DNA of 64,000 nucleotides, taken from NCBI RefSeq assembly GCF_004295485.1, contig NZ_CP036164.1:558001-622000 (forward strand). The letters run 5' to 3'. Numbering within the stretch: position 1 is the first letter of the stretch; every line of letters begins with the position of its first letter. Both the position numbers and the translations under genes were made by a program. Below are positions 1 through 63,984 of the stretch, piece by piece. The stretch is from Janibacter limosus (GTDB taxonomy: Bacteria; Actinomycetota; Actinomycetes; Actinomycetales; Dermatophilaceae). A model generated the notes under the pieces. The model had not been told where the DNA came from, ran no database searches, and saw only the letters and a program-made list of their open reading frames with translations.

Positions 1-184
1 TGCCGAGGGTGCGGACTCCGCGCACGTCCTCGCCGTCGCGCGGTCGAAGGGGGACGGTGCGGCCCCCTTCGTCCCACTGCATGGCGGTCACCGACGTGAC
101 CTCGTGACCGGCCCGGCGGACCACTCGCTCCCGTGCTCGCCAGTCGTCCACCACACCGCTGTGGGAGATCCGAAGGATCCGCAC
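1..184 (-). CDS. Glycosyltransferase, N-terminal fragment (runs off window)
   Basis: Only the first 61 codons lie in the window; the gene continues beyond base 1. The GTG start at 184 is followed by MRILRISHSG and a region that reads like the N-terminus of a GT4/GT-B glycosyltransferase: a hydrophobic first strand, then an arginine-rich helix ending in AGHEV. It diverges from the chain-length/BY-kinase gene at 282, consistent with the polysaccharide locus extending to the left. The fragment contains an inverted pair of the CGAAGGG motif (45-53 and 63-71). The family call rests on the short N-terminus and the context. Confidence 0.6.
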   Translation of the reverse strand, partial: MRILRISHSGVVDDWRARERVVRRAGHEVTSVTAMQWDEGGRTVPLRPRDGEDVRGVRTLG

Positions 185-281
185 CTTATAGACTCCTCGC
201 GAGTGGGTGGGGGGCGTCACACTGACCTTACCGGCCGCGCATCGGGCGCTGGCCGTTCGCGCCCAGGGGTAGGAGCAAGAG

Positions 282-1685
282 TTGCAGTTCAGCGAGTTCT
301 TGAATGTCCTGAGGACGCGATGGAAGCTCATCGCCGCGTGCGTCGTGCTGGCCGTCCTGGCCGCCACGGCGCTCACCCTGCTCACGACCCCGGTGTACGA
401 GGCCCGAGCCCGGATCTATCTCAGTGCCGAGGGGCGCGGCGGGGACGCTGCGCGGAGCACGGGCAGTGTCTTCGTCCTCACCAGCGACGACCTCGACACC
501 TATGTCTCGATCCTCAACACCCCTGCGGTGCTCGGCCCGCTGCGCAAGGAGCTCGGCCTCGCAACGGGGCACCCGATCAACGTGAGCGCAGAGGTCACCG
601 GCTCGACCTCGATCCTCAACATCACCGCCCGCTCGTCCGACCCGAAGGAGGCTGCCGCGGTCGCCAACGAGGTGGGCCCCCAGCTCGGGGCAGTGGCTGG
701 CGAGTTCTCCACGCTGCTGAAGTCGTCGGGGCAGAAGGTCGTCTCGACGCCGATCCAGCCAGCCTCGGCGCCGTCGCGACCGGTGTCCCCAGACCCGGTG
801 CGCAACATCGGCCTCGGCCTGCTCGCAGGTCTCGTCCTCGGGATCGGTCTCGCCTTCATCCGGCACGCCCTGGACACCAAGGTCCGTGGCGAGGAGGACA
901 TCCGCGCGCACTCCGATGCGCCGATGCTGGCCGCGCTGCCCCTCGACCGGTCCTCGACCACGGGGCTCGTCAGCGTCGAGGACGACCCGCATGGCCGGCA
1001 TGCCGAGGCGATCCGTCGGCTGCGCACCAACCTGATGTTCGTCGACGTCACGACCGGCAGACATTCCTTCGTCGTCACCTCGGCGATGCCCGGCGAGGGC
1101 AAGACGACCACGGCTGCCAACCTCGCGCTGGCGATGGCCGACTCCGGACGTCGCACGCTGCTCGTCGACGCAGACCTGCGCAACCCGTCGGTCGCGCGCA
1201 CCCTCGGCATGGAGGGCAGCGTGGGCCTCACGACCGTACTGCTCGGAGAGGCGGAGGTGCGCGACGTCATCCAGCCGTGGGGCTCTCATGGCATGGACGT
1301 GCTCCCGGCAGGGCCCGTCCCGCCCAACCCGAGCGAGCTGCTCGGCTCGGCCCCGATGGAGGAGCTGCTGCGCTCCCTCGTGGGCACGTACGACTTCGTC
1401 CTCATCGACTCCCCACCGGTCGTGCCGGTCATCGACGCCGTCGTCATCGAGCGGCTCACCGGTGGTCTGCTCATGGTTGTGGCCACCGACCGGACCCGCA
1501 AGAAGGACCTGGCCGCCGCGCTGCGACAGCTCGACACCGTCGGGGCGCGCGTCTCGGGGTTCGCCCGTAACTTCGTCGCCAGCAAGGCAGAGGGTGGTTA
1601 CCGCTACGGCTACCACGCCTACGAGCAGGAGGTCGAGCGTGAGACCCGGCGTGCCCGCAAGACGAAGACCCGCAGCCGCACCTGA
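282..1685 (+). CDS. Chain-length determinant fused to BY-type tyrosine autokinase (Wzz/CpsD)
   Basis: Inner-membrane co-polymerase and tyrosine autokinase expected to control polysaccharide chain length and export, 467 aa. TTG start at 282 preceded by AGGAG at 271. TM1 is about residues 15-35 and TM2 about 172-193, flanking an extracytoplasmic Wzz-like region. The cytoplasmic kinase carries Walker A SAMPGEGKTTT (about 267-277), Walker A' LLVDADLR (about 292) and Walker B FVLIDSPP (about 371). The tail holds a tyrosine cluster, YRYGYHAY (about 440), followed by a basic end, the usual autophosphorylation site. The fused architecture is typical of actinobacteria and Firmicute-like CpsCD. It is followed by a strong terminator at 1696. 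Confidence 0.92.
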   Translation: MQFSEFLNVLRTRWKLIAACVVLAVLAATALTLLTTPVYEARARIYLSAEGRGGDAARSTGSVFVLTSDDLDTYVSILNTPAVLGPLRKELGLATGHPINVSAEVTGSTSILNITARSSDPKEAAAVANEVGPQLGAVAGEFSTLLKSSGQKVVSTPIQPASAPSRPVSPDPVRNIGLGLLAGLVLGIGLAFIRHALDTKVRGEEDIRAHSDAPMLAALPLDRSSTTGLVSVEDDPHGRHAEAIRRLRTNLMFVDVTTGRHSFVVTSAMPGEGKTTTAANLALAMADSGRRTLLVDADLRNPSVARTLGMEGSVGLTTVLLGEAEVRDVIQPWGSHGMDVLPAGPVPPNPSELLGSAPMEELLRSLVGTYDFVLIDSPPVVPVIDAVVIERLTGGLLMVVATDRTRKKDLAAALRQLDTVGARVSGFARNFVASKAEGGYRYGYHAYEQEVERETRRARKTKTRSRT

Positions 1686-1695
1686 GCAGTCGGGC

Positions 1696-1743
1696 ATGAC
1701 GAAGGGCGCCGCGCGAGAGATCTCGCGCGGCGCCCTTCGTCAT
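1696..1743. terminator. Bidirectional terminator built from an inverted CGAAGGG pair
   Basis: A perfect inverted repeat with 23-nt arms (1696-1718 and 1721-1743) and a 2-nt centre lies between two convergent genes that end at 1685 and 1763. Each arm carries ATGACGAAGGGCG, so the CGAAGGG repeat at 1700 faces its inverse at 1733. No clear U-tract follows, as is common in high-GC actinobacteria. Confidence 0.85.
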
Positions 1744-4228: not shown

Positions 4229-5203
4229 GTGACTGAGCCGACCGAACATGAGCAGACGCAGGCGCCACGACGGGTGATGGTGACCGGTGGGGCCGGGTTC
4301 ATCGGGTCGCACATCGCGGAGCGACTCCTCCAGCAAGGGCACGAGGTGCTCGTGGTCGACAACTTCTACTCGAGCACCCGCCGCAACCTGACGCACCTCT
4401 TCGAGCACCCCAACTTCGAGCTGTTGCGTCACGACGTGACCTTCCCGCTGTACGTCGAGGTCGACGAGATCTACCACCTGGCCTGCCCCGCGAGCCCGAT
4501 CTTCTACCAGCGCGACCCTGTCCAGACCACGAAGACGAGCGTCCTGGGCTCGATCAACATGCTCGGTCTGGCCAAGCGCACCAAGGCCAAGATCCTGCTG
4601 TCCTCGACCTCGGAGGTCTACGGCGACCCGCAGGTGCACCCCCAGACCGAGGACTACTGGGGCAACGTCAACCCGATCGGCATCCGGTCCTGCTACGACG
4701 AGGGCAAGCGTTGCGCGGAGACGCTCTTCTTCGACTACCGCCGTCAGCACGACATGCCGGTCAAGGTCGCCCGCATCTTCAACACCTACGGTCCTCGGAT
4801 GCAGCCCAACGACGGTCGGGTCGTCTCCAACTTCATCGTCCAGGCACTCGCGGGCGAGCCGCTGACGATGTACGGCGACGGTAGCCAGACCCGCTCCTTC
4901 TGCTTCGTGGACGACATGGTCGACGGGCTGATGTCGCTGATGGCGACTCCGCACGAGGTGACCGGTCCGATCAACATCGGCAACCCGGTCGAGTTCACGA
5001 TGCTCGAGCTCGCCGAGCTCGTGCTCGAGCTGACCGGCAGCAGCTCCGAGCTCGTCCACCTGCCGCTGCCCCAGGACGACCCGACCAGGCGACGTCCCGA
5101 CATCACGCAGGCCACCGAGGTCCTCGGGTGGGAGCCGCGGGCTCAGTTGCGGGCCGGGCTGCAGCGCACCATCGACTACTTCGCTGCGCTGCCCACGTCG
5201 TGA
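4229..5203 (+). CDS. UDP-glucuronate decarboxylase (UDP-xylose synthase)
   Basis: Short-chain dehydrogenase/reductase, 324 aa, converting UDP-glucuronate to UDP-xylose with bound NAD, a donor for the surface polysaccharide. The NAD-binding motif is [10 protein letters not shown] (about 14-23). The UXS-type segment [18 protein letters not shown], the catalytic S...Y-x3-K region (SCYDEGKR, about 151-158) and the conserved [10 protein letters not shown] follow in order. These blocks are hallmarks of UXS rather than generic epimerases. GTG start, leaderless context. It is followed 14 nt later by the flippase gene. Confidence 0.92.
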
Positions 5204-5217
5204 CAGGAGCCCTCGAT

Positions 5218-6762
5218 GTGCCGCCACCCGCTAGACGCGGGGTCGGCCAAGGGCTGATCAACGGCACGGCGTGGACGGTGGTCCACGTCGCGGTCTCGGT
5301 ACCCATTGCCTTCTTGGCTAACGTCGTCGTGGCGCGCAGTCTCGGCGCGGTGGACTACGGTCGTCTGGCGATCCTCACGATGATCCTCGCGCTGGCAACG
5401 GCTGCCGCCTCGCTCGGTGTCGGTTCTGCTCTCATGCAATTCGTTACTAAGGCCTCCGAAGCAGGACGAACACACGACGTGGATCGGCTGGTCTCCGGCG
5501 CGCAGGGCTACAACATCTTCGTCGCGGCGCCACTCGTCGCCGTCGTCGTCGCAGTTGTGGTCGACGTGCCGTGGCCCTTTCTCCTCCTGGCGATCGTCTT
5601 CGGCATCTTCGGTCCCGCAGTGCTGCAGGCGGGACCGATCCTGCTGGCGACCCAGCACCGCTCAGATCGGGCAGCCCAGATCGCGATGATCAGCAACCTG
5701 GTGACCCAAGTGATCGTCGTGACGACGGTGCTCGTCCGTCCGACCGCCTCGGCGGTGTGGACCGCACGCATCGTCGCCACTGGCGTCCTTATGTCACTGC
5801 CTCTGCTCGCCCTTACGCCACGACTGCGGCGGGCCGCGCTCCGGCCGCGGACCCCGTGGAGCCTGCCCCGCGACTTCTGGATCTTCGCGATTCCCACCGG
5901 GGCGGCCGTCCTGGTGAGCCAGCTCGTGACGGACAGGGTGCAGATCTTCTTCCTCGAGTGGCTGGACGACTCGGTGACGGTAGGCCTCTACGCACTGGCC
6001 TTCGGTCTGGCGGTCCAGATCCTCGCGCCCGTGCAGGCAGCGGTCGGCCCGCTCCTCCCGGCATTCGCCGCCCTGCGCGAACGCGGGGAGGAGCACGCGC
6101 GCGGCGGTCTGCTCCGGGTGACGCGGGTGGCAGCGATCATGGCGGGTGTCGTTCTCTCCTGCGGTCTCCCCGCGCTGGGGGCGCTGATCCCGTGGATCTA
6201 CGGGGTGCAGTTCGCCGCGAGCGCGGACTACTTTGTGGTCATGTCGTGCGCCGCTGGCATCGTCATCGTCGGGTCGGGCTCCTACGCATCCCTCATGGCC
6301 CGCTTGCGCGGCGGCAGCTACCTCCGAATCAATCTCGTCGCACTCGTCAGCATGGCGGCCGTTGCCCTGGCATCGATCCCGTGGTGGGGTGCTTGGGGCG
6401 CCGTTGCCTCGATGGTGGTGGGCACGCTCGTACGGGCTCTGCTCATGGTGGTGCTCGAGATGCGCGCCTACGAGGTCGACCGGTCCGAGATGGCGCGGGC
6501 CTTCGCCCCTGTGCTCGCCGCGATCGTGGCGATCCACGTCGTCTGGTTTGGTTGGATGGCACACGTGTCAGCGCCTGCCTGGATCTCGTCGCCGGTCGGT
6601 GGCCTTCTGTCGTTGACCCTCTTCATACTGGCCGTTCGGGTGTCCCGCACTGGCCTGACCACTTCTGACCGTGAGGCGCTCGTTAAGGCGGTTCCTGGGC
6701 GACTGCGACGGCCGGCCCGTATGTGTGTTGGGCTGGTCTCAGATCCACGCCGTCACGAGTGA
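5218..6762 (+). CDS. Polysaccharide/lipid-linked oligosaccharide flippase (Wzx/MOP family)
   Basis: Multi-pass membrane protein of about 514 aa with 12-14 predicted hydrophobic helices along its whole length, typical of Wzx/MurJ-like MOP-superfamily flippases. It presumably moves the undecaprenyl-linked repeat unit outward. Start GTG 5218 chosen because AGGAG (5205-5209) lies 8 nt upstream; GTG 5200 and earlier starts would overlap UXS. It lies 12 bp before the GT11 gene. Base use is somewhat less GC-biased than in housekeeping genes of the window, and no CGAAGGG copies occur in it, in line with an acquired locus. Confidence 0.88.
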   Translation: MPPPARRGVGQGLINGTAWTVVHVAVSVPIAFLANVVVARSLGAVDYGRLAILTMILALATAAASLGVGSALMQFVTKASEAGRTHDVDRLVSGAQGYNIFVAAPLVAVVVAVVVDVPWPFLLLAIVFGIFGPAVLQAGPILLATQHRSDRAAQIAMISNLVTQVIVVTTVLVRPTASAVWTARIVATGVLMSLPLLALTPRLRRAALRPRTPWSLPRDFWIFAIPTGAAVLVSQLVTDRVQIFFLEWLDDSVTVGLYALAFGLAVQILAPVQAAVGPLLPAFAALRERGEEHARGGLLRVTRVAAIMAGVVLSCGLPALGALIPWIYGVQFAASADYFVVMSCAAGIVIVGSGSYASLMARLRGGSYLRINLVALVSMAAVALASIPWWGAWGAVASMVVGTLVRALLMVVLEMRAYEVDRSEMARAFAPVLAAIVAIHVVWFGWMAHVSAPAWISSPVGGLLSLTLFILAVRVSRTGLTTSDREALVKAVPGRLRRPARMCVGLVSDPRRHE

Positions 6763-6774
6763 GAGGATCGCCGC

Positions 6775-7632
6775 ATGGTGCGTTATCGATCAACGGCGCG
6801 CACGGTTGTCGGGGGCGTTGTCAGGTGGTTCAGTCCTTCGACGCGCGTGATCAAGGATCTGCCTCCGTGGGCCGGTTTCGGCAACCAGCTCTTCTTCTGC
6901 CTTTGGGCGAGTGCTCAGCGGCAGCGAGGGGCCGACCTGTGCTTGGTGCGAAGCGCCCGCTCAACTCGCTGGCTCGAGTACTTTCCGCTGCTCGCGTCGG
7001 AGCTGACAATCGGGCGTGAAGACGTGAGGCTCTCGGATCATCGCGATCTGACTTCCTGGGAGGACATCACGGCCGTGGGGCGACCGGAGGGGCCGACCCG
7101 TGATGAGCTCACGTACTTCATCGAGCGGTACTTGATGCCGTCGGAGCTGTTCGCGCCCACGGTCGAGCTGGCGCGTGGGGTGACACTGAACGTGCGTCGT
7201 GGGGACTACTTTTCGGACCCAGAGGTGCGGGGCAAGTTCAGCTTCGACCAGGTCGCGTACATCGAGGTTGTGCTCAAGCGTTTGCGAGCCGAGGGGCGCG
7301 CCCCCGAGGAGATCCGCGTCGTGTCCGATGACCTGGCGTGGTGCCGCGAACGGTTGTCCCATCTCGATGGTGGGCAGCACATCATGCACTTCGTCGAGTC
7401 GGGGGGACCCATGGATGATCTCACCTGTGTCGCCCGCTCACGGGAGCTCGTCATCATGAACTCGTCTTTTTCCATCTGGGCCGCATACATCAGCAACCAC
7501 CTTTACGGCGACAATCACGCGCTGATCCACGCTCCGGCCTTCGGTACGAGGCCCTTCGACGGAACGCCGTGGCCATCCCTCGATCCGCGGTGGGACATCG
7601 TGTCCAATATCCCGGGCGGTTGGGACTCCTGA
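6775..7632 (+). CDS. GT11-like alpha-1,2-fucosyltransferase family protein
   Basis: Glycosyltransferase family 11-like protein, 285 aa. Visible family blocks are the N-terminal GFGNQLFFCLWAS (about 38-50), the donor-binding LNVRRGDYF (about 140-148, equivalent to HxRRxDY) and NSSFSIWAA near the C-terminus (about 225-233, equivalent to NSSFSWWAA). GT11 enzymes usually transfer fucose from GDP-fucose to galactose. No fucose-synthesis genes are in this window, so the donor is uncertain. GAGAGGA precedes the ATG. GC is visibly lower here than in flanking genes. Confidence 0.8.
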   Translation: MVRYRSTARTVVGGVVRWFSPSTRVIKDLPPWAGFGNQLFFCLWASAQRQRGADLCLVRSARSTRWLEYFPLLASELTIGREDVRLSDHRDLTSWEDITAVGRPEGPTRDELTYFIERYLMPSELFAPTVELARGVTLNVRRGDYFSDPEVRGKFSFDQVAYIEVVLKRLRAEGRAPEEIRVVSDDLAWCRERLSHLDGGQHIMHFVESGGPMDDLTCVARSRELVIMNSSFSIWAAYISNHLYGDNHALIHAPAFGTRPFDGTPWPSLDPRWDIVSNIPGGWDS

Positions 7633-7643
7633 GTCCTGAGAGC

Positions 7644-8501
7644 TCAGTGTCGGCGTCGTCCTCGGGGCTCCGCAGCGTAAGCCCGTAGTAGTCTCCGCGC
7701 CTGGCCCCTGAGTCGTAGCAAGGGGGCAACGCGGGGCGACCACGCGTTGTGGAAGGCCCTCAGGTCTTCTAGCTCGCTCTTCAGTACTTGCGCCTCCAGG
7801 GCAGCCGCGAGGAATAGGTCATTAGCGAGATCCGGCCGTAAGTCGACGAAAGCGCGCTGGACACTGCCCGCCTGCGTCGCGCGCCCCTCGCTGCGCGATC
7901 TCGGACGGAGCCTGTAGTGGAGCACAGCGTCGGGGACTTGGATCATGGTTCCCCGCGTGTGTCCAAGGACCTTCAACCACATGAACCAGTCTTCGTCCAT
8001 GATGTCGGTCGTTCGGTATCCCCCCACGTCTTCCCACACCTGCCGACGGTATAGGGCACATGCGACCACTTGATTGGTGACCGCTATGTCCTCCAGACGG
8101 ACGATCGGGGGCGCATCCTGGACCCCGTCCGCAGCTCCAAACCTGCGGACCTTCGGAAACGCCGCGACAGCGTCACTGGTCTCCAAGGCCTGTACCAACA
8201 GCTTGACCGTGTCGGGTTCGATCCAGTCGTCCCCGTCCAGTGGAAGGATGAACTCACCCCGAGCACTTCGGATCCCCGCGTTTCTTGCCTCACCCGGCCC
8301 TGAGTTCGACTGCCGGATGATCTCGACACCTCGGGGGTTCCCAAGTTCGCGCGCGGTCACCGGTGAGCTTGAGCCGTCGTCCACTACGACGATCTCGAGC
8401 GGCTCATACGACTGCTGCAGAGCCGAGGTGACGGACTTCCGCAGGTGTTCGGGGGCGTCGTTGAACGTCGGGATGACGACAGTGACGAGAGGTGGCTCCA
8501 T
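7644..8501 (-). CDS. GT2 family glycosyltransferase (GT-A fold)
   Basis: 285 aa. Order of motifs: VTVVIPTFND (about 6-15), VVVDDGSSS (about 38-46), SGPGEARNAGI (about 66-76) and LPLDGDDWIE (about 87-96) with the DXD metal site. These identify a WcaA-like inverting transferase that builds the repeat unit. No transmembrane segment is seen, so it is cytoplasmic or peripheral. Last gene of a minus-strand run of four glycosyltransferases. It lies 11 bp tail to tail from the GT11 gene. GC is lower than average. Donor and acceptor are unknown. Confidence 0.87.
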   Translation of the reverse strand: MEPPLVTVVIPTFNDAPEHLRKSVTSALQQSYEPLEIVVVDDGSSSPVTARELGNPRGVEIIRQSNSGPGEARNAGIRSARGEFILPLDGDDWIEPDTVKLLVQALETSDAVAAFPKVRRFGAADGVQDAPPIVRLEDIAVTNQVVACALYRRQVWEDVGGYRTTDIMDEDWFMWLKVLGHTRGTMIQVPDAVLHYRLRPRSRSEGRATQAGSVQRAFVDLRPDLANDLFLAAALEAQVLKSELEDLRAFHNAWSPRVAPLLRLRGQARRLLRAYAAEPRGRRRH

Positions 8502-8517
8502 TTGGATCGTCTCCGCG

Positions 8518-9609
8518 TCAGTCGGCGGCCGCGGATGTGCGGGGACCGCGAAGGGCGACGACGCGCTCGTAGGCCGCCAACGTGGCTCGAGCGGTGTCTT
8601 CCCACGTGAACTGAGAGGTCACGCGGTCGCGGAGGCTGGCAGAGGCGCTGTCGCCGAGCGCGGCCAGGGTGGTCTGGCGAATGGTTGCGGGGTCGGCGGG
8701 GTCGCAGTACCGGGCGTCGTCGCCGAGGTACTCACGGGCGTGCCCCCGGTCGGTGGTGACGATCGTGCAGCCGGAGGCCGCGGCTTCCAGCGAGACCAGG
8801 CCGGTCGTCTCGTACCAGGAGGCCAGGACGTGGGTGTGGTGACGGGCGTACAGGTCAGGCAGCTCGTTGTGCTCGACGCCCGACAGGAGCGTCACGTTGT
8901 CCGTCGCCGCAGTTCGGCACAGATTGGCGTATTCGCGGTGATGAGGGTGCGTGGGTCCCACGATGGTCAGCGTGACGTCCGGCAGGCCACGGAGTGCCTC
9001 GATGACGGCGAGCTGGCCCTTGTGCGGCTCGATGCGGCCCACGCTCAGCACCGTGCCGGCCAGTCGAGGGCGATCGAATCCCGGGGCGAAGAGGCGTGCA
9101 TCGATCGCATTCGGCACGATGGACGTCTGCGTGAGCACCCCTAGGTCATCGCGGATGTGCCGGGCCTCGCCCTCAGCATTGGGAAGCAGGACGTCGGCCA
9201 TGGACCAGGCGCGCATCCGGTCGAGCTGGTCTTCCATCTCGAGGGTCGCCAGTCGGGTCAGAGGCTCGCGACCACGCAGGCTCGCACGGAGGTACCGCAT
9301 GCCGCGGTAGGTACGACCCGCTCCGTCACGCAGCGTCGGGCCGCCACCACCTGCTGCGGTTCCGTAGGCCAGCCCGACATAGATCGTCGACATCGCGACG
9401 GGGAATCCCTGCTGCCGGGCCTGTGCTACCTCGCCGGCGCTCAGCTGGAACCCGTGGACGATGTCCCAGTCGCCGTCGGGCAGGAAAGGCCCATCGTGCT
9501 CGTCGACCTCAACACCCAGCGCGCGCAGTGCCCGAGCCGTCTGCTGCAGCTGGACCCGGTGGCCGCCGGGGATCTCAGACCCGCTGTTGATCCACATGAG
9601 GACGCGCAT
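8518..9609 (-). CDS. GT4 family glycosyltransferase
   Basis: 363 aa, GT-B fold. The C-terminal donor domain shows LSVGRIEPHKGQLAVIEAL (about 189-207), the VGPTHPHHREY loop and ETTGLVSLEAAASGCTIV (about 265-282), the E-x7-E signature of retaining GT4 enzymes. The N-terminal acceptor domain has a GGHRVQLQQTARAL helix. It follows the next GT4 gene upstream after a 4-bp gap, so the two are co-transcribed. It contains a CGAAGGG copy at 8549, one of only three in the whole 3.4-14.2 kb stretch. Sugar specificity unknown. Confidence 0.87.
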   Translation of the reverse strand: MRVLMWINSGSEIPGGHRVQLQQTARALRALGVEVDEHDGPFLPDGDWDIVHGFQLSAGEVAQARQQGFPVAMSTIYVGLAYGTAAGGGGPTLRDGAGRTYRGMRYLRASLRGREPLTRLATLEMEDQLDRMRAWSMADVLLPNAEGEARHIRDDLGVLTQTSIVPNAIDARLFAPGFDRPRLAGTVLSVGRIEPHKGQLAVIEALRGLPDVTLTIVGPTHPHHREYANLCRTAATDNVTLLSGVEHNELPDLYARHHTHVLASWYETTGLVSLEAAASGCTIVTTDRGHAREYLGDDARYCDPADPATIRQTTLAALGDSASASLRDRVTSQFTWEDTARATLAAYERVVALRGPRTSAAAD

Positions 9610-9613
9610 GCAG

Positions 9614-11829: not shown

Positions 11830-11838
11830 GGCGTCACT

Positions 11839-13806: not shown

Positions 13807-17105
<3,299 letters not shown>

Positions 17106-27004: not shown

Positions 27005-27005
27005 C

Positions 27006-51384: not shown

Positions 51385-51837
51385 TCAGCCAGCGTCGGGA
51401 CGGGCATCGAGATCTGCGCGACAGCGCTGCTCGAAGGTCTCCAGCTCGGACAAGGCATCGTCGATGTCGCGCCGGCGTTGCTCCAGGTCCTCGCGCCGCT
51501 CGTCGATCTGCGAGAGCACGTACTCCAGCTGGCTGCGGTGGCCGCGCGGGGCGTCGTAGAGGTTGATGATCGTGGCGATCTCATCGAGGGGAAACCCGAG
51601 GCGCTTGCCGCGCAGGATGAGCGCCAGCCGCGTCCGGTCGCGACGGTGAAACAGGCGCGTTGTGCCCTGCCGCTCCGGGGAGATCAGGCCGATGTCCTCG
51701 TAGTGGCGCACCGTGCGGGTGGTGACGCCGAACTCGTCCGCGACCTCGCGGATCGTCCAGGTGTGCTCCCGGTCGGGGGGTGCGCCTGCGGCCACCGCTG
51801 CAGGTAGGGGAGTCGCCCCCTTCGTCCGGCTTGTCAT
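51385..51837 (-). CDS. MerR-family transcriptional regulator (LiuR-like)
   Basis: About 150 aa. The N-terminal MerR HTH is WTIREVADEFGVTTRTVRHYE (split across about 27-46), then DIGLISPERQGTTRLF, followed by the RLALILRGKRLGFPLDEI block and a long coiled-coil dimerisation helix (SQIDERREDLEQRRRDIDDA). There is no cysteine metal site. Together with the adjacent acyl-CoA dehydrogenase and carboxyltransferase this resembles regulators of branched-chain acyl-CoA catabolism. ATG 51837 chosen; ATG 51849 is in frame. Both lie next to the palindrome at 51855. Confidence 0.85.
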   Translation of the reverse strand: MTSRTKGATPLPAAVAAGAPPDREHTWTIREVADEFGVTTRTVRHYEDIGLISPERQGTTRLFHRRDRTRLALILRGKRLGFPLDEIATIINLYDAPRGHRSQLEYVLSQIDERREDLEQRRRDIDDALSELETFEQRCRADLDARPDAG

Positions 51838-54735: not shown

Positions 54736-54786
54736 CGACACCCTCCCTTCGCACGAGTTCGCACCTCCTGCGGAGGGAGGGTGTCG
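54736..54786 (+). terminator. Terminator hairpin after the carboxyltransferase gene
   Basis: 13-nt perfect arms CGACACCCTCCCT (54736-54748) and AGGGAGGGTGTCG (54774-54786) with a 25-nt loop, 28 nt after the stop. A CCCTTCG copy overlaps the left arm. Confidence 0.7.
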
Positions 54787-54911: not shown

Positions 54912-55988
54912 ATGAAGCGCTTCACCGCTCCCTTCGCCGCCGCGGCCTGTGCGATCGGCCTCGTGGCCACCGCCGGCTCCGCCGGTGCCGCCACGAACGA
55001 CCCCCTCCGCCCCGACCTGTGGGGCCTCGACCAGGTCCAGGCCGAGCAGGCGTGGGCGACGACCCGGGGCGAGGGTGCCGTCGTCGCCGTCGTCGACACC
55101 GGCGTCGACCTCACCCACCCCGACCTCGCCGGGCGTCTCGTGCCGGGCGCCGACTTCGTCTGCGGAGAGGGCGTCACGGGCTCCTGCGGTGACGGCAGCT
55201 GGAAGGGCCGGGACGGTGTCGGGCAGGACCCCGACGTCCACGGCACCCACGTGTCCGGCACGATCGCGGCCGTCGCCGACAACGGCATCGGTGTCGCCGG
55301 TGTCGCGCCGGACGCCAAGATCATGCCGATCAAGGTCCTCGAGGACGGCTCCGGCACGACCGAGGACATCGCCGAGGGGGTCCGCTACGCTGCCGACAAC
55401 GGCGCCGATGTCGTCAACCTGAGCCTCGGCGGTCTGCCCGGTACCCAGCTGCTCACCATCCTCGGTGCCGACACGACGATGAAGGACGCGATCCAGTACG
55501 CCCGCGACAAGGGCACGCTGACCGTCGCGGCAGCAGGCAACTCATCGACCCTGTTGTGCAACGACCCCGCCTTCAGCAGCGACTCGATCTGCGTCGGCGC
55601 GACCGACCGCGACGAGATGAAGTCCTACTTCTCCGAGCTGCCGATCAAGCTCTCCGGCAAGGGCGTCGCCGCACCGGGCGGCTCCGGGCGTCTGCTCGGT
55701 GGCCCCTGCTCCGACGACATCATCTCGACCGTGCCGCAGGGCACCGGCACCGACGAGTGCGGTGAGGGCAAGGACTACGCAGCCTTCGCCGGCACGTCGA
55801 TGGCCACCCCCCACGTCGCCGGTGTCGCTGCGCTCCTCTTCGCGCAGGGCCGCGACCTGGACGGCGTCGAGCAGGCGATCCTCACGACCTCGCGGCAGCC
55901 GCTGCTCGGTCTGCGCGGCAGCTTCAGCCCGCTCTACGGGCGCGGCATCGTCGATGCCGAGGCCGCGGTGGCCACGCCGGTCTCCTGA
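54912..55988 (+). CDS. Secreted subtilisin-like serine protease (S8)
   Basis: 358 aa. A signal peptide (about 1-33, ending SAGAA) with little or no propeptide: the mature enzyme begins close to the catalytic domain. Catalytic triad visible as VVDTGVDLTHPDL (Asp about 62), VHGTHVSGTIAA (His about 112) and AGTSMATPHVAGVAAL (Ser about 297), with oxyanion Asn in AAAGNSS. Four to five cysteines suggest disulfides. AAGGA precedes the ATG. It converges with Maf, overlapping by 55 bp. Extracellular proteolysis is the expected role. The missing propeptide is unusual for S8. Confidence 0.9.
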   Translation: MKRFTAPFAAAACAIGLVATAGSAGAATNDPLRPDLWGLDQVQAEQAWATTRGEGAVVAVVDTGVDLTHPDLAGRLVPGADFVCGEGVTGSCGDGSWKGRDGVGQDPDVHGTHVSGTIAAVADNGIGVAGVAPDAKIMPIKVLEDGSGTTEDIAEGVRYAADNGADVVNLSLGGLPGTQLLTILGADTTMKDAIQYARDKGTLTVAAAGNSSTLLCNDPAFSSDSICVGATDRDEMKSYFSELPIKLSGKGVAAPGGSGRLLGGPCSDDIISTVPQGTGTDECGEGKDYAAFAGTSMATPHVAGVAALLFAQGRDLDGVEQAILTTSRQPLLGLRGSFSPLYGRGIVDAEAAVATPVS

Positions 55989-56608
55989 CCCGAGGCGACG
56001 GACCACCAGTCGACCCCGAGGTCGCCGAGGAGACGTCGTAGCAGGGGCAGGCACAGCCCGACGACGGTGCTCGGGTGGCCCTCGATCGACTCGACGAAGG
56101 GGGCGCCCAGCCCGTCGAGCGTGAAGCCGCCGGCCACGTGCAGCGGCTCGCCCGTCGCGACATAGCCCTCGATCTCGGCGTCACTCAACGAGGCGAACCT
56201 GACGGTCGCACTCGCCGGACCCCCGGCGGTGCGGCCGTCACGCATGTCGATGAGGTGGTGGCCCGTGTGGAGGACCGCCGAGCGGCCCCGGACCTGCCGC
56301 CAGCGCTCGCGCGCCACGTCGGCGGTCCCCGGCTTGCCGTGGACCAGGCCGTCGACCTCGAGGACGGAGTCGCAGGCGAGGACGAAGGGGGGCGGTCCCT
56401 CGTGGGAGAGCGCGGCGACGGCCGCTCCCTTCGCCTCGGCCAGCAGCTGGGCGAGCCGGGAGGGCGACAACTGCGGATCCTGCTCGCGGGCGGCCGCCTC
56501 GACGGCATCCTCGTCGACAGCGCTGACCACGACCAGCGGATCGATGCCGCTGGAACGCAGCAGATGCAGACGTGCGGATGATGCAGAGGCCAGGACGAGT
56601 GAGCGCAT
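55934..56608 (-). CDS. maf: Maf-like nucleoside triphosphate pyrophosphatase
   Basis: 224 aa. The N-terminal LVLASASSARLHLLRSSGI (about 4-22) and the DTVI-like LACDSVLEVDG (about 77-87) with GKPGTADVARE match the Maf/HAM1-like family, which hydrolyses non-canonical or pyrimidine NTPs. In the conserved block the usual D-T-V reads D-S-V. The C-terminal SIEGHPSTVVGLCLPLL is typical (G-x-P-x-x-V-x-G-L-P). ATG 56608 preferred over GTG 56614. The last 25 residues extend past the family end and overlap the protease gene tail to tail. Confidence 0.9.
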   Translation of the reverse strand: MRSLVLASASSARLHLLRSSGIDPLVVVSAVDEDAVEAAAREQDPQLSPSRLAQLLAEAKGAAVAALSHEGPPPFVLACDSVLEVDGLVHGKPGTADVARERWRQVRGRSAVLHTGHHLIDMRDGRTAGGPASATVRFASLSDAEIEGYVATGEPLHVAGGFTLDGLGAPFVESIEGHPSTVVGLCLPLLRRLLGDLGVDWWSVASGQETGVATAASASTMPRP

Positions 56609-58024: not shown

Positions 58025-58063
58025 CGAAGGGAGCGACACCGATCACCGGTGCCGCTCCCTTCG
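58025..58063. terminator. Terminator hairpin from an inverted CGAAGGG pair
   Basis: CGAAGGGAGCGACACC (58025-58040) faces GGTGCCGCTCCCTTCG (58048-58063): 16-bp arms with one G-T pair and a 7-nt loop. It lies between two convergent genes ending at 58013 and 58064, so it serves both. Confidence 0.8.
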
Positions 58064-58851: not shown

Positions 58852-60543
58852 TCAGCTCTGCGCGCTGCCCAGCACGGCCGACCTCAGGGTGTCGAGGCCG
58901 ACGCTGCCGATGTCCAGTGCCCGCCGGTGGAAGGCGGTGAGGTCGAAGTCCTCGCCCTCGCGGCGTGCCGTCTCCTCGCGCAGCTGCATCCACAGCCGCT
59001 CGCCGATCTTGTAGCTCGGTGCCTGGCCGGGCCAGCCGAGGTAGCGGTCGAGCTCGAAGCGCAGGAAGCCGTCGTCCATGTTGGCGTGCGCCGACAAGAA
59101 GGCCCAGGCCTTGTCATAGGTCCACTCGCCGCCCCCGACCTCGGCGGGAGCCTCGAAGCCGCAGTGCACGCCGATGTCGAGGACGACCCGGGCCGCCCGC
59201 AGGGACTGGCCGTCGAGCAGGCCCATCCGGTTGCCGGGGTCGTCCATGTGCCCCAGCTCGGCCATGAACCACTCGGCATAGAGGGCCCAGCCCTCGCCGT
59301 GCCCGGAGGTCCACGAGGCGAGTCGGCGCCAGCGGTTGAGCAGCTCCTTGCGGAAGATCGTCTGGCCCACCTGGAGGTGATGGCCCGGGACGCCTTCGTG
59401 GTAGACGGTCGTCAGCTCGCGCCAGGTGCCGAACTCGGTGACGCCCTTGGGCACCGACCACCACATGCGGCCGGGTCGGGAGAAGTCGTCGCTCGGCCCG
59501 GTGTAGTAGATCCCGCCGGTCTCGGTCGGCGCGATGAGGCACTCGATGGTGCGTACCGGCTCGGGGATGTCCATGTGCGGGGCGACCAGCTCGATCGCCT
59601 CGTCGGCGGTGCGCTGCATCCACTCGCGCAGTGCGTCGGTCCCGTGCAGCTGGTAGCGCTCGTCGGCGTCGAGGAGGGCGATGGCCTCCTTGACGCTCGC
59701 CCCGGGGCGGAACTCCTCGGCGACCGACTCCATCTGGGCGGTGATCCGAGCGAGCTCCTCCTGGCCCCACGCGTAGGTCTCCTCGAGGTCGATCGTGGCT
59801 CCGAGGAAGGCGCGGGAGTGCAGCTGGTAGGACTCTCGACCGCAGGCGTCCCTCTCGGGAGCCCGGTCGCGCAGGGGCTCCAGCCGGACCGCGAGGTCGC
59901 GGTAGGCGCTGGCGGCGGCCTCGACGGACTGCCGCAGGTCGGAGGCGACCGCCTGGGGCAGGGGCGCGCCGTCGTCGAGGGTGGCCCCGGTGAGCAACCC
60001 GGCGAAGTAGCCGTCCGGGGCGGTGAGGTCCGCGCACTGCTCGATGCACCGCTCGTACTGACGAAGGGGGGCGATCCTCCCCTTCGCCGCGGCAGCGGTC
60101 AGCGACTGCGTCCACTGCTCGAGGGCGAGCGGGACCTTGCCCATGCGGGTGGCGATGGTCGCCCAGTCGTCGGCCGTCGCCGTCGCCATGATGTCGAAGA
60201 CGTCCCGTACCGACTGCATGGGCGAGGCGATGACGTTGATCTCCTGCAGGTCCAGGCCGGCAGCGTGGATCTCCTCGGCGAGCCCGAGTCGCTCGCGCAT
60301 CGCCTCGAGCGTCACGCGGTCGACGTCGTCGACGGGAGTGGCCTGCTCGAGCGCGGCGAGCGTCTCCTGGCGCAGGGCGGACGCCGCGGCGTAGCCCGCC
60401 GGTGAGAGGTCGTCGAGATCGCTCTCGTGGCCCGGCAGGCCCAGGTAGGTCGCGGTGATGGGGGACAGGGCGACCTCGCGGTCGAGGTGCGCCTCGGCGA
60501 TGCGGTCGATGTCGGTCTGGGGACGGCTCTGCTCCTGGGTCAC
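58852..60543 (-). CDS. DUF885-family putative metallo-carboxypeptidase
   Basis: 563 aa. The gluzincin-like motif TVYHEGVPGHHLQVGQT contains HExxxHH, expected to bind zinc, and EGWALYAEW follows about 35 residues later, as in other DUF885 proteins. No signal peptide is visible. GTG 60543 chosen: TACCGT lies 7 nt upstream with no Shine-Dalgarno, so it is probably leaderless. Peptidase activity is inferred from the motif. An inverted CGAAGGG pair (60062-60069 and 60079-60086) lies inside the coding sequence. The lipoprotein gene follows on the same strand. Confidence 0.87.
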   Translation of the reverse strand: MTQEQSRPQTDIDRIAEAHLDREVALSPITATYLGLPGHESDLDDLSPAGYAAASALRQETLAALEQATPVDDVDRVTLEAMRERLGLAEEIHAAGLDLQEINVIASPMQSVRDVFDIMATATADDWATIATRMGKVPLALEQWTQSLTAAAAKGRIAPLRQYERCIEQCADLTAPDGYFAGLLTGATLDDGAPLPQAVASDLRQSVEAAASAYRDLAVRLEPLRDRAPERDACGRESYQLHSRAFLGATIDLEETYAWGQEELARITAQMESVAEEFRPGASVKEAIALLDADERYQLHGTDALREWMQRTADEAIELVAPHMDIPEPVRTIECLIAPTETGGIYYTGPSDDFSRPGRMWWSVPKGVTEFGTWRELTTVYHEGVPGHHLQVGQTIFRKELLNRWRRLASWTSGHGEGWALYAEWFMAELGHMDDPGNRMGLLDGQSLRAARVVLDIGVHCGFEAPAEVGGGEWTYDKAWAFLSAHANMDDGFLRFELDRYLGWPGQAPSYKIGERLWMQLREETARREGEDFDLTAFHRRALDIGSVGLDTLRSAVLGSAQS

Positions 60544-60568: not shown

Positions 60569-62455
60569 TCACACGAGCGTCTCGTCGATGAAGCACCATC
60601 GCCAGGCCTCGCCCGGCTCGAGGGAGCGCATGACCGGGTGCCCGGTCTCGCGGAAGTGCGCCGAGGCGTGGCCGTGCGAGGAGTCGCAGCAGCCCACGTG
60701 CCCGCACGAGAGGCAGACGCGCAGGTGCAGCCAGGTCGATCCGTCGGCGAGGCACTCCTCGCAGCCCTCGGGCTGCCGGGGGACGACGCACTCGGGCAGC
60801 TCGCGCTGGTGCTGGCACTCACCGGTGAGCCGGTCGGGGGCGCGGAGGGGAGCCTCTCGGATCGCCTCGACCCGCGCGCCGATCGACTCGATCGTCGACT
60901 CCTCGACGTCGAGTGCGGCGAGGACGTCGGCGAGGACCTGGTGGTCGACGACCCCCTGGTCGCGGATGCGCAGCAGCTCGGTGCGCTCGGCCTGCAGGAC
61001 CGGTAGCCGGACCCGCCGGTAGGCATCGCTCGGTGACACGGAGTCGCGACCGCCCAGACGCTCCCACACCCGGTTGACCCGCATGGCGGCCTGCTGGCGC
61101 AGCCGCTCGTCGACGTCCGGGTCGACGTCGTCCAGCTCGTCGAGACGGCGCAGCCCGGCGCTCACCGCGGACTGGGTGACGGTGGCCTCCTGCAGCGCGT
61201 CCTCGCGTGGGTCGGGCCCGTGGACCCCGAGCGCCCGGGCAAGGACCGGCAGGGTGGTGCCCTGGATCAGCAGGGTCCCGATGGTGACCATCATCGCGAT
61301 GAGCACGAGTGTGGGGCGGTGCGGGGTCTCCTGCGGGAGCAGGAGCGCGGCTGCCAGCGTGACGACTCCCCGCATGCCGGCCCAGCTGACGATCACGCCC
61401 TCGCCGAAGGGACTGAGCACGTCGCGCTCGCGGTGGGAGGTGAGGGAGCGCAGCCAGCGGAAGGGGAAGATCCACACGGGGCGCAGGACGAGGACGGTGG
61501 CCAGGACCGCGAGCCCGGCGAGCAGCGTGGCACTCAGACCGAGATCGGTGGCCTGCACGTCCTCGACGAGGCTGTTCAGCTGCAGCCCGATGACGAGGAA
61601 GACCGCGTTCTCCAGGATGAACTGGATGCTCGCCCAGTTGGACCGCTCCGACAGTCGCGAGCGGGCGTTCTGCAGCACGGGGGAGCGGTGGCCGAGGAGC
61701 AGCCCGGTGGTCACGACGGCGAGGACGCCCGAGGCGTGGAGCAGCTCGGCGGGCAGGTAGGCGGCGAAGGGGGCGATGAAGCTGATCGTCGTGTCGGCCA
61801 CGGGCGAGTTGGCGTGGAGCCGTAGCACGGCGATGAGCTTGTAGGCGACGACGCCGATGACGACGCCACCGATCGCGGCTCGCAGGAAGTCGAGGGTGAC
61901 GGACTGGACCGAGACGTCGAGGACACCTTGGCTCCCTTGCCCCGCGGCCAGCCCCGCGACCGCCAGGGCGGTGCGCAGCGAGACCAAGGCGGTCGCGTCG
62001 TTGAGGAGGGACTCGCCCTCGAGGAGCGTGACGGCGCGTCGGGGCAGCCCGATGCTCCTGGCCACGGCGGTCGCGGCGACGGCATCGGGTGGGGCGACGA
62101 TCGCACCGAGCGCGAAGGCCAGGGCGAAGCTGATCGGGAGCAGCGCGCTCGCGACGACGGCGACCCCGAGGGCGGTGAAGAGGACGAGGGCGATGGACAG
62201 TCCTGCGATGGCCACGCGCTGCGCCTTGAGGTCGACGAGCGAGGTCGAGATGGCGGTGGCGTAGAGCAGCGGTGGGAGCAGCCCGATGAGCACGACCTCC
62301 GACGAGAGGGTGACCTCGGGGAACCACGGGACGAAGGAGGCCGCCGCGCCCGCCGCGAGCAGCAGCAGCGGCGTGAGCAGGCCGAGCCGCGACGCGATCC
62401 CGTGCACGAGCAGGGAGGCGACCGCGATGGCCAGGAGGGTGAGGGCGAGGTCCAC
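60569..62455 (-). CDS. Na+/H+ antiporter (CPA1) with C-terminal UBP zinc finger
   Basis: 628 aa. About twelve membrane helices fill residues 1-420. GAIVAPPDAVAATAVARSIG (about 115-134) is the ND-type ion-site region and LLNDATALVSLRTALAVAGL follows, as in CPA1 exchangers; SWAGMRGVVTLAAALLLP is the second conserved block. A cytoplasmic helical region (about 430-540) leads to a UBP-type zinc finger (about 548-628), CQHQRELPEC, GCEECLADG, VCLSCGHVGCCDSSHGHASA with the ordered Cys/His ligands, and GHPVMRSLEPG. Moves Na+ outward against H+. The fused finger is known in some actinobacterial antiporters; its ligand is unclear. Confidence 0.9.
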   Translation of the reverse strand: MDLALTLLAIAVASLLVHGIASRLGLLTPLLLLAAGAAASFVPWFPEVTLSSEVVLIGLLPPLLYATAISTSLVDLKAQRVAIAGLSIALVLFTALGVAVVASALLPISFALAFALGAIVAPPDAVAATAVARSIGLPRRAVTLLEGESLLNDATALVSLRTALAVAGLAAGQGSQGVLDVSVQSVTLDFLRAAIGGVVIGVVAYKLIAVLRLHANSPVADTTISFIAPFAAYLPAELLHASGVLAVVTTGLLLGHRSPVLQNARSRLSERSNWASIQFILENAVFLVIGLQLNSLVEDVQATDLGLSATLLAGLAVLATVLVLRPVWIFPFRWLRSLTSHRERDVLSPFGEGVIVSWAGMRGVVTLAAALLLPQETPHRPTLVLIAMMVTIGTLLIQGTTLPVLARALGVHGPDPREDALQEATVTQSAVSAGLRRLDELDDVDPDVDERLRQQAAMRVNRVWERLGGRDSVSPSDAYRRVRLPVLQAERTELLRIRDQGVVDHQVLADVLAALDVEESTIESIGARVEAIREAPLRAPDRLTGECQHQRELPECVVPRQPEGCEECLADGSTWLHLRVCLSCGHVGCCDSSHGHASAHFRETGHPVMRSLEPGEAWRWCFIDETLV

Positions 62456-62576
62456 CCGCTCATTGTGGCGCCCGTCCGTCGCGGCATCAGTCGGCGGCGT
62501 CTCGCCATCTGGCGCGGATCGTCTCGCGATGAGTGAGTGGCCCGGCCAGGGGCGCCGACGGTGCCACGATCGATCG

Positions 62577-63374
62577 ATGACGTCCTATGTCCACGGCCAC
62601 GCCGCCCCCGTCGTCGCCGCCCACGCCGCCCGCACCGTCGACAGCTCGGCGGCCTACCTCGCCGGTCATCTGCGCGAGGGCATGCGCGTGCTCGACGTCG
62701 GCTGCGGACCCGGGTCGATCACCCTGGAGCTCGCGCAGCGCGTGGCTCCGGGTGAGGTCGTCGGCGTCGACGCGTCGGAGTCGGTGATCGCCACCGCTCG
62801 CGCAGCGGCCGAGGCCGCGGGCGACGAGCACACCCACTTCGAGGTGGCGGACGCGATGCGGCTGCCCTTCGACGACGACAGCTTCGACGTCGTCCACGCC
62901 CACCAGGTGCTCCAGCACGTGCCCGACCCGGTGGGTCTGCTGCGCGAGATGGCCCGGGTCGCCCGACCCGGTGGTCTCGTCGCCGCGCGGGACGCCGACC
63001 ACGAGGCGATGACCTGGGCGCCTGCGCACCCCGGGCTGGACCGGTGGCTGGAGCTCTACCGGGCGGCGGCACGCGGCACGGGCGGCGAGCCGGACGCCGG
63101 GCGCCACCTGCTTCGCTGGGCGCACGAGGCCGGCCTCACCGAGGTCACCGCGACCGCCTCGGTGTGGTGCTTCGCCGACGACGAGGCGCGCGAGTGGTGG
63201 GGCGGGCAGTGGCAGCGGCGAGCCGTGGACTCCGGCTTCCGCGACCAGGTCCTCGCCCAGGGCCTGGCCGACGACGGGGAGATCGCTCGCGTCGTCGAGG
63301 GGTGGCGGGAGTGGACGGCGTCACCGGACGGGTGGTTCGTCATCGTGCACGGCGAGGTCCTCGCCCGCGCCTGA
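62577..63374 (+). CDS. Class I SAM-dependent methyltransferase
   Basis: 265 aa. Motif I VLDVGCGPGSITLELAQRV (about 38-56), acidic motif VVGVDASESVIATA, motif II/III FDDDSFDVVHAHQVLQHV (about 99-116) and LLREMARVARPGGLVAARD are the UbiE/COQ5-like blocks. The C-terminal part, from about 150, is the variable acceptor domain. ATG 62577 chosen as the first start before motif I; CGATCG precedes it without a Shine-Dalgarno. The acceptor cannot be named. RNase HI follows 61 bp downstream. Confidence 0.88.
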   Translation: MTSYVHGHAAPVVAAHAARTVDSSAAYLAGHLREGMRVLDVGCGPGSITLELAQRVAPGEVVGVDASESVIATARAAAEAAGDEHTHFEVADAMRLPFDDDSFDVVHAHQVLQHVPDPVGLLREMARVARPGGLVAARDADHEAMTWAPAHPGLDRWLELYRAAARGTGGEPDAGRHLLRWAHEAGLTEVTATASVWCFADDEAREWWGGQWQRRAVDSGFRDQVLAQGLADDGEIARVVEGWREWTASPDGWFVIVHGEVLARA

Positions 63375-63435
63375 TGATCTTCGTCTGATACAAACAGCCG
63401 CAGCCTTGTCCCCCTTCGTCCCCCGGAGTGACCGT

Positions 63436-63984
63436 ATGACCTTGACCGCAGCCGCCGACGGCTCCGCACTCGGCAACCCCGGCCCCGCCGGCTGGGGGTG
63501 GTACATCGACGCGGACCGCTGGGACCTCGGCGGCTGGCCGCACGGCACCAACAACATGGGCGAGCTGACGGCGGTGCTCGACCTGCTGCAGCAGACGGCC
63601 CACCTCGACGAGGACCTGCACGTCATCTGCGACAGCAAGTACGTCATCAACTCGATCACGTCCTGGATGCCGGGGTGGAAGGCCAAGGGCTGGCGCAAGA
63701 AGGACGGCAAGCCGGTCCTCAACCTCGAGATCATGCAGGCGCTCGACGCGGCGATGGCCGGGCGTCGGGTGACCTTCGAGTGGGTCAAGGGCCACGCGGG
63801 GCACCCGCTCAACGAGGAGGCCGACCGGCTCGCGACGACCGCGGCTGCCGCATGGGCGAAGGGGGTCGCCCCCGAGAGAGGGCCCGGCATCCCGGGTGCC
63901 CGGTCGGGTACGGCGGAGGCAGTCGTCGAGCACGCGGTCCAGCAGTCAGAGCAGGAGCCGGACGAGCCGCTGTCGCTCTTCTAG
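63436..63984 (+). CDS. rnhA: Ribonuclease HI
   Basis: 182 aa. Degrades RNA in RNA-DNA hybrids. Catalytic residues visible: ADGSALGNPGPAGWGW (Asp about 6), NNMGELTAVLDLL (Glu about 38), CDSKYVINSI (Asp about 60), and HAGHPLNEEADRLA with His and the final Asp (about 117-130). ATG 63436 has CGGAG 7 nt upstream; an in-frame TTG at 63406 is less likely. The last 50 residues are an unstructured tail beyond the usual domain. The gene ends 16 nt before the window edge. Confidence 0.93.
   Translation: MTLTAAADGSALGNPGPAGWGWYIDADRWDLGGWPHGTNNMGELTAVLDLLQQTAHLDEDLHVICDSKYVINSITSWMPGWKAKGWRKKDGKPVLNLEIMQALDAAMAGRRVTFEWVKGHAGHPLNEEADRLATTAAAAWAKGVAPERGPGIPGARSGTAEAVVEHAVQQSEQEPDEPLSLF

Follow-up and report, generated by a model that had tools for sequence, protein, structure and literature searches.

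CGAAGGGRG, an abundant word of Janibacter spaced strand by strand, is a candidate self-DNA recognition tag

Introduction

Sequence-specific DNA uptake has been described for Neisseriaceae and Pasteurellaceae. The DUS of Neisseriaceae occurs about once per 1-1.5 kb, both within and between genes, forms hairpin pairs and is scarce in strain-specific DNA (PMC3630211, PMC2397512), and dialects are known within this one family (PMC3630211). In Haemophilus influenzae, the orientation of the uptake sequence has no effect (PMC1939737). Transformation of the actinobacterium Micrococcus luteus needs tad genes (PMC4322843), and a search of that article for terms for uptake sequences found none. Our literature search found neither a comparable self-DNA tag reported for actinobacteria nor a report of uptake or transformation in Janibacter. 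Among other abundant words, Chi, which acts with RecBCD, is asymmetric, G-rich and polar in its behavior. HIP1 of cyanobacteria is very abundant, lineage-specific and palindromic.

Here we analyze a word of Janibacter limosus that, by analogy, resembles the self-DNA tags of DNA-uptake bacteria. The window, the whole 64,000-nucleotide stretch in which the word was first noticed, corresponds to C1:558001-622000 of G000 (3,545,254 bp, one contig), the whole Janibacter genome used. The word shares with DUS the density, the placement within and between genes, the hairpin pairs, the dialects within a family and the scarcity in strain-specific DNA; it differs from both DUS and USS in its actinobacterial host and unrelated sequence. 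Like HIP1 it is abundant and lineage-specific, but it is non-palindromic and its spacing depends on the strand.

Results

The original prediction counted 37 and 35 copies of CGAAGGG on the two strands of the window, against about 15 expected. We count 38 and 37 (75 in total), and the genome contains 1862 forward and 1859 reverse copies, compared with 160 and 143 for the word read backward. The expected figure of 15 rested on composition only and does not hold as a null; the excess itself does, since CGAAGGG is 2.4- to 2.9-fold over-represented in coding DNA under codon-aware nulls. The signal is stronger for a longer, asymmetric element, the 9-mer CGAAGGGRG, of which the 3.55-Mb genome contains 2365 copies (0.67 per kb; strands 1185/1180), compared with 35 genome-wide for its reversed control. 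In 830 genes predicted by a home-made gene finder it occurs 434 times, versus 58.1±7.3 under a codon-shuffled null and 60.2±6.9 under a null that keeps codon-junction dinucleotides. Under the codon-shuffled null in coding DNA, CGAAGGG without RG is found 263 times versus 181 expected, and CGAAGGGYG is not enriched (55 versus 70 expected). The roughly 7-fold coding excess of CGAAGGGRG over codon-shuffled nulls is seen in all six frames and reaches 69-fold in unfavorable ones, which indicates that selection or drive acts at the DNA level. Motif counts lie at neither the codon-shuffled nor the Markov expectation. Maximum-order Markov scoring in the window was set aside as it masks the motif: the 7-mer scores only z 4.3 because sub-words of the motif are also enriched, and codon-aware nulls are therefore required. 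As with DUS and USS, this is a short word over-represented genome-wide on both strands, at roughly 1 per kb.

Of the 75 copies of CGAAGGG in the window, 45 match CGAAGGGRG, 22 on the forward and 23 on the reverse strand. Forward copies ending in GG lie at 45..53, 14893..14901, 31150..31158, 33889..33897, 35459..35467, 37123..37131, 45943..45951, 47899..47907, 56095..56103, 56383..56391, 60062..60070, 61765..61773 and 63857..63865, with an intergenic one at 44089..44097 that adjoins a CCTTAAGG repeat unit. Forward copies ending in AG are found at 17017..17025, 20284..20292, 40721..40729 and 42133..42141 and, between genes, at 32436..32444, 45536..45544 and 46544..46552. The copy at 45536, originally assigned to the coding sequence of a VWA gene (45535), lies between predicted genes. 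On the reverse strand, GG copies are located at 63..71 (paired with 45..53), 15417..15425, 23116..23124, 34066..34074, 36089..36097, 43041..43049, 47322..47330 and 48407..48415, and in intergenic DNA at 51816..51824 and 63410..63418; AG copies are located at 14257..14265, 15536..15544, 26249..26257, 30960..30968, 32845..32853, 50946..50954, 53914..53922, 54928..54936 and 56425..56433, and in intergenic DNA at 18155..18163, 40649..40657 and 54743..54751. The two remaining AG copies, 58025..58033 (forward) and 58055..58063 (reverse), are the left and right arms of one intergenic hairpin. Such inverted intergenic pairs, noted earlier, recur in an 862-kb sample, with 15 convergent pairs within 60 bp versus 2.7 expected.

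A motif-poor stretch had also been noted, and no CGAAGGGRG is present from 71 to 14257. Within this 14.2-kb gap, eight polysaccharide-synthesis genes (4277..12930) have Pfam matches to epimerases, polysaccharide biosynthesis proteins, glycosyltransferases and an acyltransferase. The density of the word falls to 0.32/kb in the most codon-atypical decile of genes and to 0.20/kb in the decile with the best adapted codons, and is 3.3-fold higher between genes than within them. A transcription terminator element, expected mostly between genes at gene ends, was rejected because 434 of 578 copies are intragenic. At sites aligned between species, CGAAGGGRG is kept in 820 of 1290 cases (64%), compared with 12328 of 36514 (34%) for permuted control words. 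The absence of strand skew was confirmed relative to replication: with the origin placed at dnaA (3.217 Mb) and the terminus assumed opposite, 279 copies are leading and 299 lagging (leading fraction 0.483, p=0.43). These arms replaced contig halves, which were abandoned as replichores once dnaA had been located. The lack of a strong origin-to-terminus skew argues against a polar guide of the KOPS/FtsK type.

The spacing of the word depends on orientation. At distances of 100-1000 bp, Janibacter CGAAGGGRG forms 85 same-strand and 173 opposite-strand pairs (p=5e-8); same-strand pairs amount to 0.49 of expectation, compared with 1.15±0.13 for 40 control words. Other Janibacter loci, which are mutually related, give 28 and 55. 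The exclusion reaches about 1 kb and is absent between opposite-strand copies, as if one copy sufficed for roughly 1 kb of the strand on which it lies. The even density originally described is found only within strands: the pooled strands are no more even than random (CV 0.92 versus 0.94±0.04), whereas each strand taken separately is more even than after permutation of the orientations (CV 0.80 versus 0.95±0.03; 0 of 400 permutations). With the same script and distances, pieces with the DUS word gave 110 same-strand and 129 opposite-strand pairs and pieces with the USS word 39 and 32. These yardstick pieces were chosen by word (80 of 88 found for USS, 80 of at least 120 for DUS), and for DUS/USS 49 and 62 of the 80 were counted (at least 4 sites and at least 0.3 per kb), the others being dropped. 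E. coli Chi, with only 178 sites and hence little power, gave 16 same-strand pairs versus 24.8 expected and 12 opposite-strand pairs versus 15.0, again at 100-1000 bp. Strand-wise exclusion is thus not clearly displayed by the DUS-word, USS-word or E. coli Chi pieces, and the orientation-blind spacing of the Neisseria- and Haemophilus-word pieces is not shared by CGAAGGGRG. Given this mutual avoidance of copies on one strand over distances of up to about 1 kb, the function of CGAAGGGRG seems to be strand-polar.

Among 186 genomes of the family, CGAAGGGRG is carried by 16 of 16 Janibacter and 3 of 3 genomes of a sister genus, g64, which we infer to be Marihabitans; the other 167 are at background, so that 2 of 53 genera bear the word. 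In a class-level survey, 2 of 345 genomes had it, one from Janibacter and one from the g64 genus. Another unskewed word, CGNCATAC, numbers 1000 copies or more in 106 of the 186 genomes and is at background in all 19 CGAAGGGRG genomes, no genome having both. Different words thus occur in different genera of one family; by analogy, the words would be genus dialects, with CGNCATAC a tag of related genera and CGNCGTAC probably a further one. The strand-wise signal is weaker than in Janibacter for CGNCGTAC (435 same-strand and 503 opposite-strand pairs, p=0.03; only the 100-1000 bp counts are used, as its within-strand CV is confounded by partly palindromic overlap) and for the motif of G018 (102 and 129, p=0.09); for the word of G055 there is none (neighbors 36 and 41). 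Single species (G065, G139 and G114) deviate from their genus in the word. Two further candidate dialects are not relied on: AGCGGCATA in G030 has conserved flanks and may be a dispersed repeat, and CCGCATCG in G113 is scarce between genes. No clear motif was found in G025, G036, G037, G046, G179, G074, G039, G048 or G124; G029 falls outside the motif analysis, as no genes were called at its lower GC.

Competence genes are present. ComEC is found in 180 of the 186 genomes, including all 16 Janibacter; a ComEA-like protein has HHH_3 and SLBB domains, with comEA adjoining comEC; and a tad-type locus has T2SSE, T2SSF and TadE matches. TadE-like pilin genes are seen, and a second tad-type locus is probably present. 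The six genomes without a ComEC match all carry CGNCATAC (783-2596 copies); four are less than 90% complete, and the other two, 93 and 95% complete, are in hundreds of contigs. As a predictor of the motif ComEC fails: it is nearly universal and also occurs in genomes with neither word, e.g., all 12 g2 genomes, and with its equal presence there, nothing ties the motif directly to uptake.

Discussion

The likening of the word to a DNA-uptake sequence stands in part. Enrichment, lack of skew and the com and tad-type genes speak for it, and the genus dialects, the hairpin pairs and the scarcity of the word in surface-sugar genes are, by analogy, consistent with an uptake sequence. Against it, ComEC does not track the motif, and the same-strand exclusion is unlike DUS and USS. 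We tentatively favor, at somewhat less than an even chance, CGAAGGGRG as a candidate strand-specific self-DNA recognition tag in the transformation of Janibacter and the putative Marihabitans. The tag would be recognized one strand at a time, with the uptake machine (tad-type pilus, ComEA and ComEC) or a step feeding single-stranded DNA favoring the strand that bears it. Tagged fragments would be imported and recombined more often, so that the tag would spread and untagged intervals of either strand would be closed, while a second same-strand tag inside one import tract would bring nothing and close same-strand copies would not be retained. Where there is only one membrane, the sequence and the strand might be selected in a single step, giving a polar tag unlike those of Neisseria and Haemophilus. 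Since the H. influenzae sequence is orientation-blind and the DUS and USS pieces lack exclusion, the polar step is an addition made here.

The main rival, which we regard as unlikely, is a Chi-like signal that, in one orientation, halts a helicase-nuclease, in Janibacter RecBCD, as it degrades DNA from a broken end. A directional reader predicts polar, strand-wise spacing, and as left and right ends need opposite orientations, the strands would be stocked independently. RecC is found in 15 of 16 Janibacter (the one without a match is a draft of 79% completeness) and in only 2 of 9 other family genomes tested. However, CGAAGGGRG lacks the leading-strand bias of E. coli Chi, for which most of 14 stretches show a strong skew; hairpin pairs are unexpected for such a signal; and E. 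coli Chi, with its few sites, has no clear exclusion of its own. RecC also fails as a predictor of the motif: G036, G039, G048 and G074 have no strong motif (100 kb each) while bearing RecC (G074 by way of its genus-mate G024, which has it), and G018, in which RecC has no match, carries a motif of its own.

Quite improbable, in our judgment, is that the word marks a strand for some other system or is bound by one, for example as a one-strand methylation target, as a nick-directing mark for repair over about 1 kb or as a polar nucleoid-protein site. A per-strand reach of about 1 kb without replication bias would suit any such mark, but neither the hairpin use nor the dialects are predicted by it. 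We give little credence to an ordinary, orientation-blind uptake sequence of the DUS/USS kind with strand-wise spacing as a by-product of something else: density, strand equality, dialects, hairpin pairs and avoided polysaccharide genes all agree with it, but the DUS and USS pieces lack the exclusion seen in Janibacter. A functionless by-product of mutation or codon bias is hardly credible, since high-GC codon use explains why certain frames are common but does not account for the enrichment in unfavorable ones, the higher density between genes, site conservation beyond that of control words, same-strand exclusion or a range of only 2 of the 53 genera.

A strand-specific tag may not be confined to Janibacter. 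It is conceivable, though doubtful, that many actinobacteria have genus-specific, strand-polar self-DNA tags (CGAAGGGRG, CGNCATAC, CGNCGTAC and perhaps CGWGGCATCC), with strands stocked independently and a reach of about 1 kb; monoderm self-recognition would then combine sequence and strand choice in one step, and a switch of dialect between sister genera would be a barrier to gene exchange. The 1-kb strand-wise exclusion provides a quantitative signature by which the motif can be told from the DUS and USS pieces (and, on few sites, from E. coli Chi), and for that reason it is directly testable whichever machine reads the word. If the favored reading is true, self-DNA recognition extends to Gram-positive bacteria, and a genus-restricted actinobacterial tag with dialects would offer a way to predict partners in gene exchange.

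Definition and genomic distribution of the element

The original prediction described CGAAGGG as a strongly over-represented, non-skewed heptamer resembling a DNA-uptake sequence. The over-representation was confirmed and could be sharpened to a longer word. The window carries 75 copies (38 on the plus and 37 on the minus strand), and the complete source genome (G000; one contig, 3,545,254 bp) carries 1862 and 1859 per strand; the reversed heptamer occurs 160 and 143 times. In an 862-kb sample composed of 40 stretches of 20 kb from this genome plus the window, 578 of the 912 copies continue as CGAAGGGRG (R = A or G), comprising 342 CGAAGGGGG and 236 CGAAGGGAG versus 20.9 and 17.9 expected under an order-2 Markov model. 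Upstream of the nonamer, G followed by R is weakly preferred. Its single-base neighbours are mostly close to or below expectation, the clearest excesses being at positions 1 and 9 and for exchange of R at position 8. The 434 copies in 830 predicted genes far exceed both the 58.1 ± 7.3 obtained by shuffling synonymous codons within genes and the 60.2 ± 6.9 expected when codon-junction dinucleotides are preserved. Under the codon-shuffle null, the nonamer is enriched in all six frames, 67- to 69-fold in two of them, and CGAAGGG without RG just 1.45-fold.

CGAAGGGRG is denser between genes (1.83 per kb) than within them (0.55 per kb), with 2.68 per kb between convergent, 2.14 between tandem and 1.09 between divergent genes. 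When 675 genes (450 bp or longer) are divided into deciles, the most codon-adapted decile has the fewest sites per kb (0.20), followed by the decile with the most atypical codons (0.32). The 14.2-kb gap of the window that is free of the element contains polysaccharide genes. In alignments of the com locus from 13 Janibacter genomes and a tad locus from 10, counted as ordered pairs that are not independent, the element is retained at 820 of 1290 aligned sites, compared with 12,328 of 36,514 for composition-permuted nonamers; at about 80% identity, the counts are 103 of 206 and 1306 of 6512.

A separate, mostly intergenic, CCTTAAGG-centred repeat occurs 38 times in the 862 kb, twice within predicted genes. 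It often forms GGTGCGCACGACCTTAAGGAGATGCGG-like tandem arrays with a roughly 31-bp period (window position 44076; contig C1 of the source genome, 13605–13667, 100710–100773 and 106568–106661). Its sole window copy adjoins a CGAAGGGGG, and its TGCGCAC part is in excess within genes as well. In locus L030, positions 11886–13496 encode a protein whose first residues, read by eye, resemble a site-specific recombinase. The gene lies three genes from comEC in a 9.2-kb stretch devoid of CGAAGGGRG and may mark an integrated element.

Strand balance and spacing

The predicted lack of skew held in the 862-kb sample. With the origin set at the DnaA domain (3,216,808) and the terminus assumed opposite, 279 of its sites are leading and 299 lagging (p = 0.43). 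Within the 41 stretches, the two orientations are more evenly balanced than a coin toss would give (chi-square 19.0), because same-orientation neighbours are locally depleted. Relative to random, such neighbours occur at 0.57 at 200–400 bp, 0.45 at 400–700 bp, 0.39 at 700–1000 bp and 0.92 at 1–1.5 kb. Opposite neighbours stay at 0.7–1.5 from 60 bp upward, and convergent hairpin pairs are in excess below 60 bp. At 100–1000 bp, there are 85 same-orientation and 173 opposite pairs (p = 4.6e-8). The same-to-expected ratio is 0.49, versus 1.15 ± 0.13 (lowest 0.80) for forty control octamers of similar abundance. The depletion persists in every context, with same and opposite counts of 27 and 70 within one gene, 13 and 30 between genes on the same strand, 12 and 20 between genes on opposite strands, and 32 and 46 when one site is intergenic. 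It also recurs in other Janibacter loci, which are related to each other (28 same, 55 opposite). CGAAGGG without RG yields 60 same and 58 opposite.

Carriers of the element and dialects in other genomes

The closest matches to the source genome's ComEC (77–91% identity in the best segment) are encoded by Janibacter records, followed by Marihabitans asiaticum (58%); by this similarity, G000 and its genus g1 are probably Janibacter. Genus g64 is likely Marihabitans, since the ComEC placement of its genome G120 matches that of the named locus L056. CGAAGGG numbers 1957–4020 copies in 16 Janibacter genomes versus 213–1179 in 42 others of the order. Among 186 family genomes including G000, CGAAGGGRG reaches 894–2601 copies in all 16 Janibacter and 1452–2165 in all three g64 genomes, versus 23–127 in the remaining 167. 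Among 345 genomes of the class, a set overlapping the family set in several genomes, it stands out only in G000 (2365) and G122 (2091), one from each carrier genus. None of the other 343 exceeds 301 copies, a maximum reached by a genome that also has 220 copies of the reversed word.

When k-mers were screened de novo against a codon-shuffled background, over 100 kb per genome, other words emerged. In genome G018 (loci L138–L142), CGNCATAC occurs 144 times in genes versus 24.9 ± 4.7 expected, and 174 times overall (1.74 per kb) versus 34 for the reversed word. By a tally from the family table, it reaches 1000 or more copies in 106 of the 186 genomes, with strands near equal, and just 41–133 in Janibacter and 50–90 in g64. 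It falls to background in single members of three genera: G065 (82 versus 2408–3210 in other g45), G139 (126 versus 1025–2867 in other g66) and G114 (68 versus 3862 and 1230 in other g62). CGNCGTAC exceeds the junction-preserving null 2.6-fold in G114, 2.7-fold in G119 and 3.2-fold in six Nocardioides loci, which belong to a group of seven enriched named loci from that genus or its family. In G055, from a different family (L167–L171), CG[AT]GGCATCC occurs 55 times in genes versus 2.3 expected in 100 kb. Nine genomes searched in this way gave no clear motif; the dialect trait is therefore widespread but patchy. G030 (L128–L132) carries AGCGGCATA, which has conserved flanks and may be a dispersed repeat. 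The G018 dialect (102 same, 129 opposite) and CGNCGTAC (435 and 503) lean more weakly in the Janibacter direction, and the G055 word shows no lean (36 same and 41 opposite neighbours).

Comparison with Chi, DUS and USS

The strongest rival explanation is a Chi-like recombination signal. RecC was found in 22 of the 39 genomes tested; 15 of the 16 Janibacter carry it, against 2 of 9 others from the family, a pattern that suggests gain or loss of RecBCD. However, RecC-bearing genera exist without a strong motif, and G018 has a similar motif yet no RecC match. The absence of leading/lagging skew in CGAAGGGRG also counts against this role; Chi of E. coli K-12, by contrast, is strongly strand-skewed. 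In spacing, Chi gives 16 same and 12 opposite; the same-strand count is under the 24.8 expected, but 178 sites are too few to decide the matter.

The resemblance to an uptake sequence was borne out in several features but not in spacing. The same script was applied to pieces of viral-collection contigs chosen by a close word pair, defined by word rather than host. Pieces with the Neisseria DUS word gave 110 same and 129 opposite (62 of 80 pieces, 405 distinct sites) and those with the Haemophilus-type USS word 39 and 32 (49 of 80 pieces, 184 sites), without the clear same-strand exclusion of CGAAGGGRG. By this test, CGAAGGGRG is not a plain DUS or USS. Among the matches listed from open-licence papers, no report of an uptake sequence in actinobacteria was recognised; the best matches listed for Janibacter did not mention the genus, and none of those for CGAAGGG as text dealt with a genomic repeat.

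A possible uptake mechanism

The spacing calls for a process that reads a single strand in a fixed direction and acts over about 1 kb, treating both strands equally and regardless of replication direction. In a cell with a single membrane, transformation would provide such polar reading if sequence preference acts at strand entry. This polar step is our inference, because excerpts on H. influenzae describe uptake independent of signal orientation (PMC1939737) and no added uptake from two close copies (PMC7811141).

In G000, comEA and comEC are adjacent. The genome also has a tad-type locus with matches to T2SSE, T2SSF and TadE, as well as another T2SSE gene close to small pilin-like reading frames. 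Transformation of Micrococcus luteus requires tad genes, according to the abstract of PMC4322843. ComEC was detected in 180 of 186 family genomes; its presence decides nothing, because the six without a match carry 783–2596 CGNCATAC each and four of them are less than 90% complete.

For DUS, excerpts of PMC3630211 and PMC2397512 argue from spread by preferred uptake to abundance, dialects, hairpin pairs and scarcity. CGAAGGGRG may well work like DUS and USS, and spread through preferred uptake would account for its abundance, the dialects, the hairpin pairs and its scarcity in polysaccharide genes.
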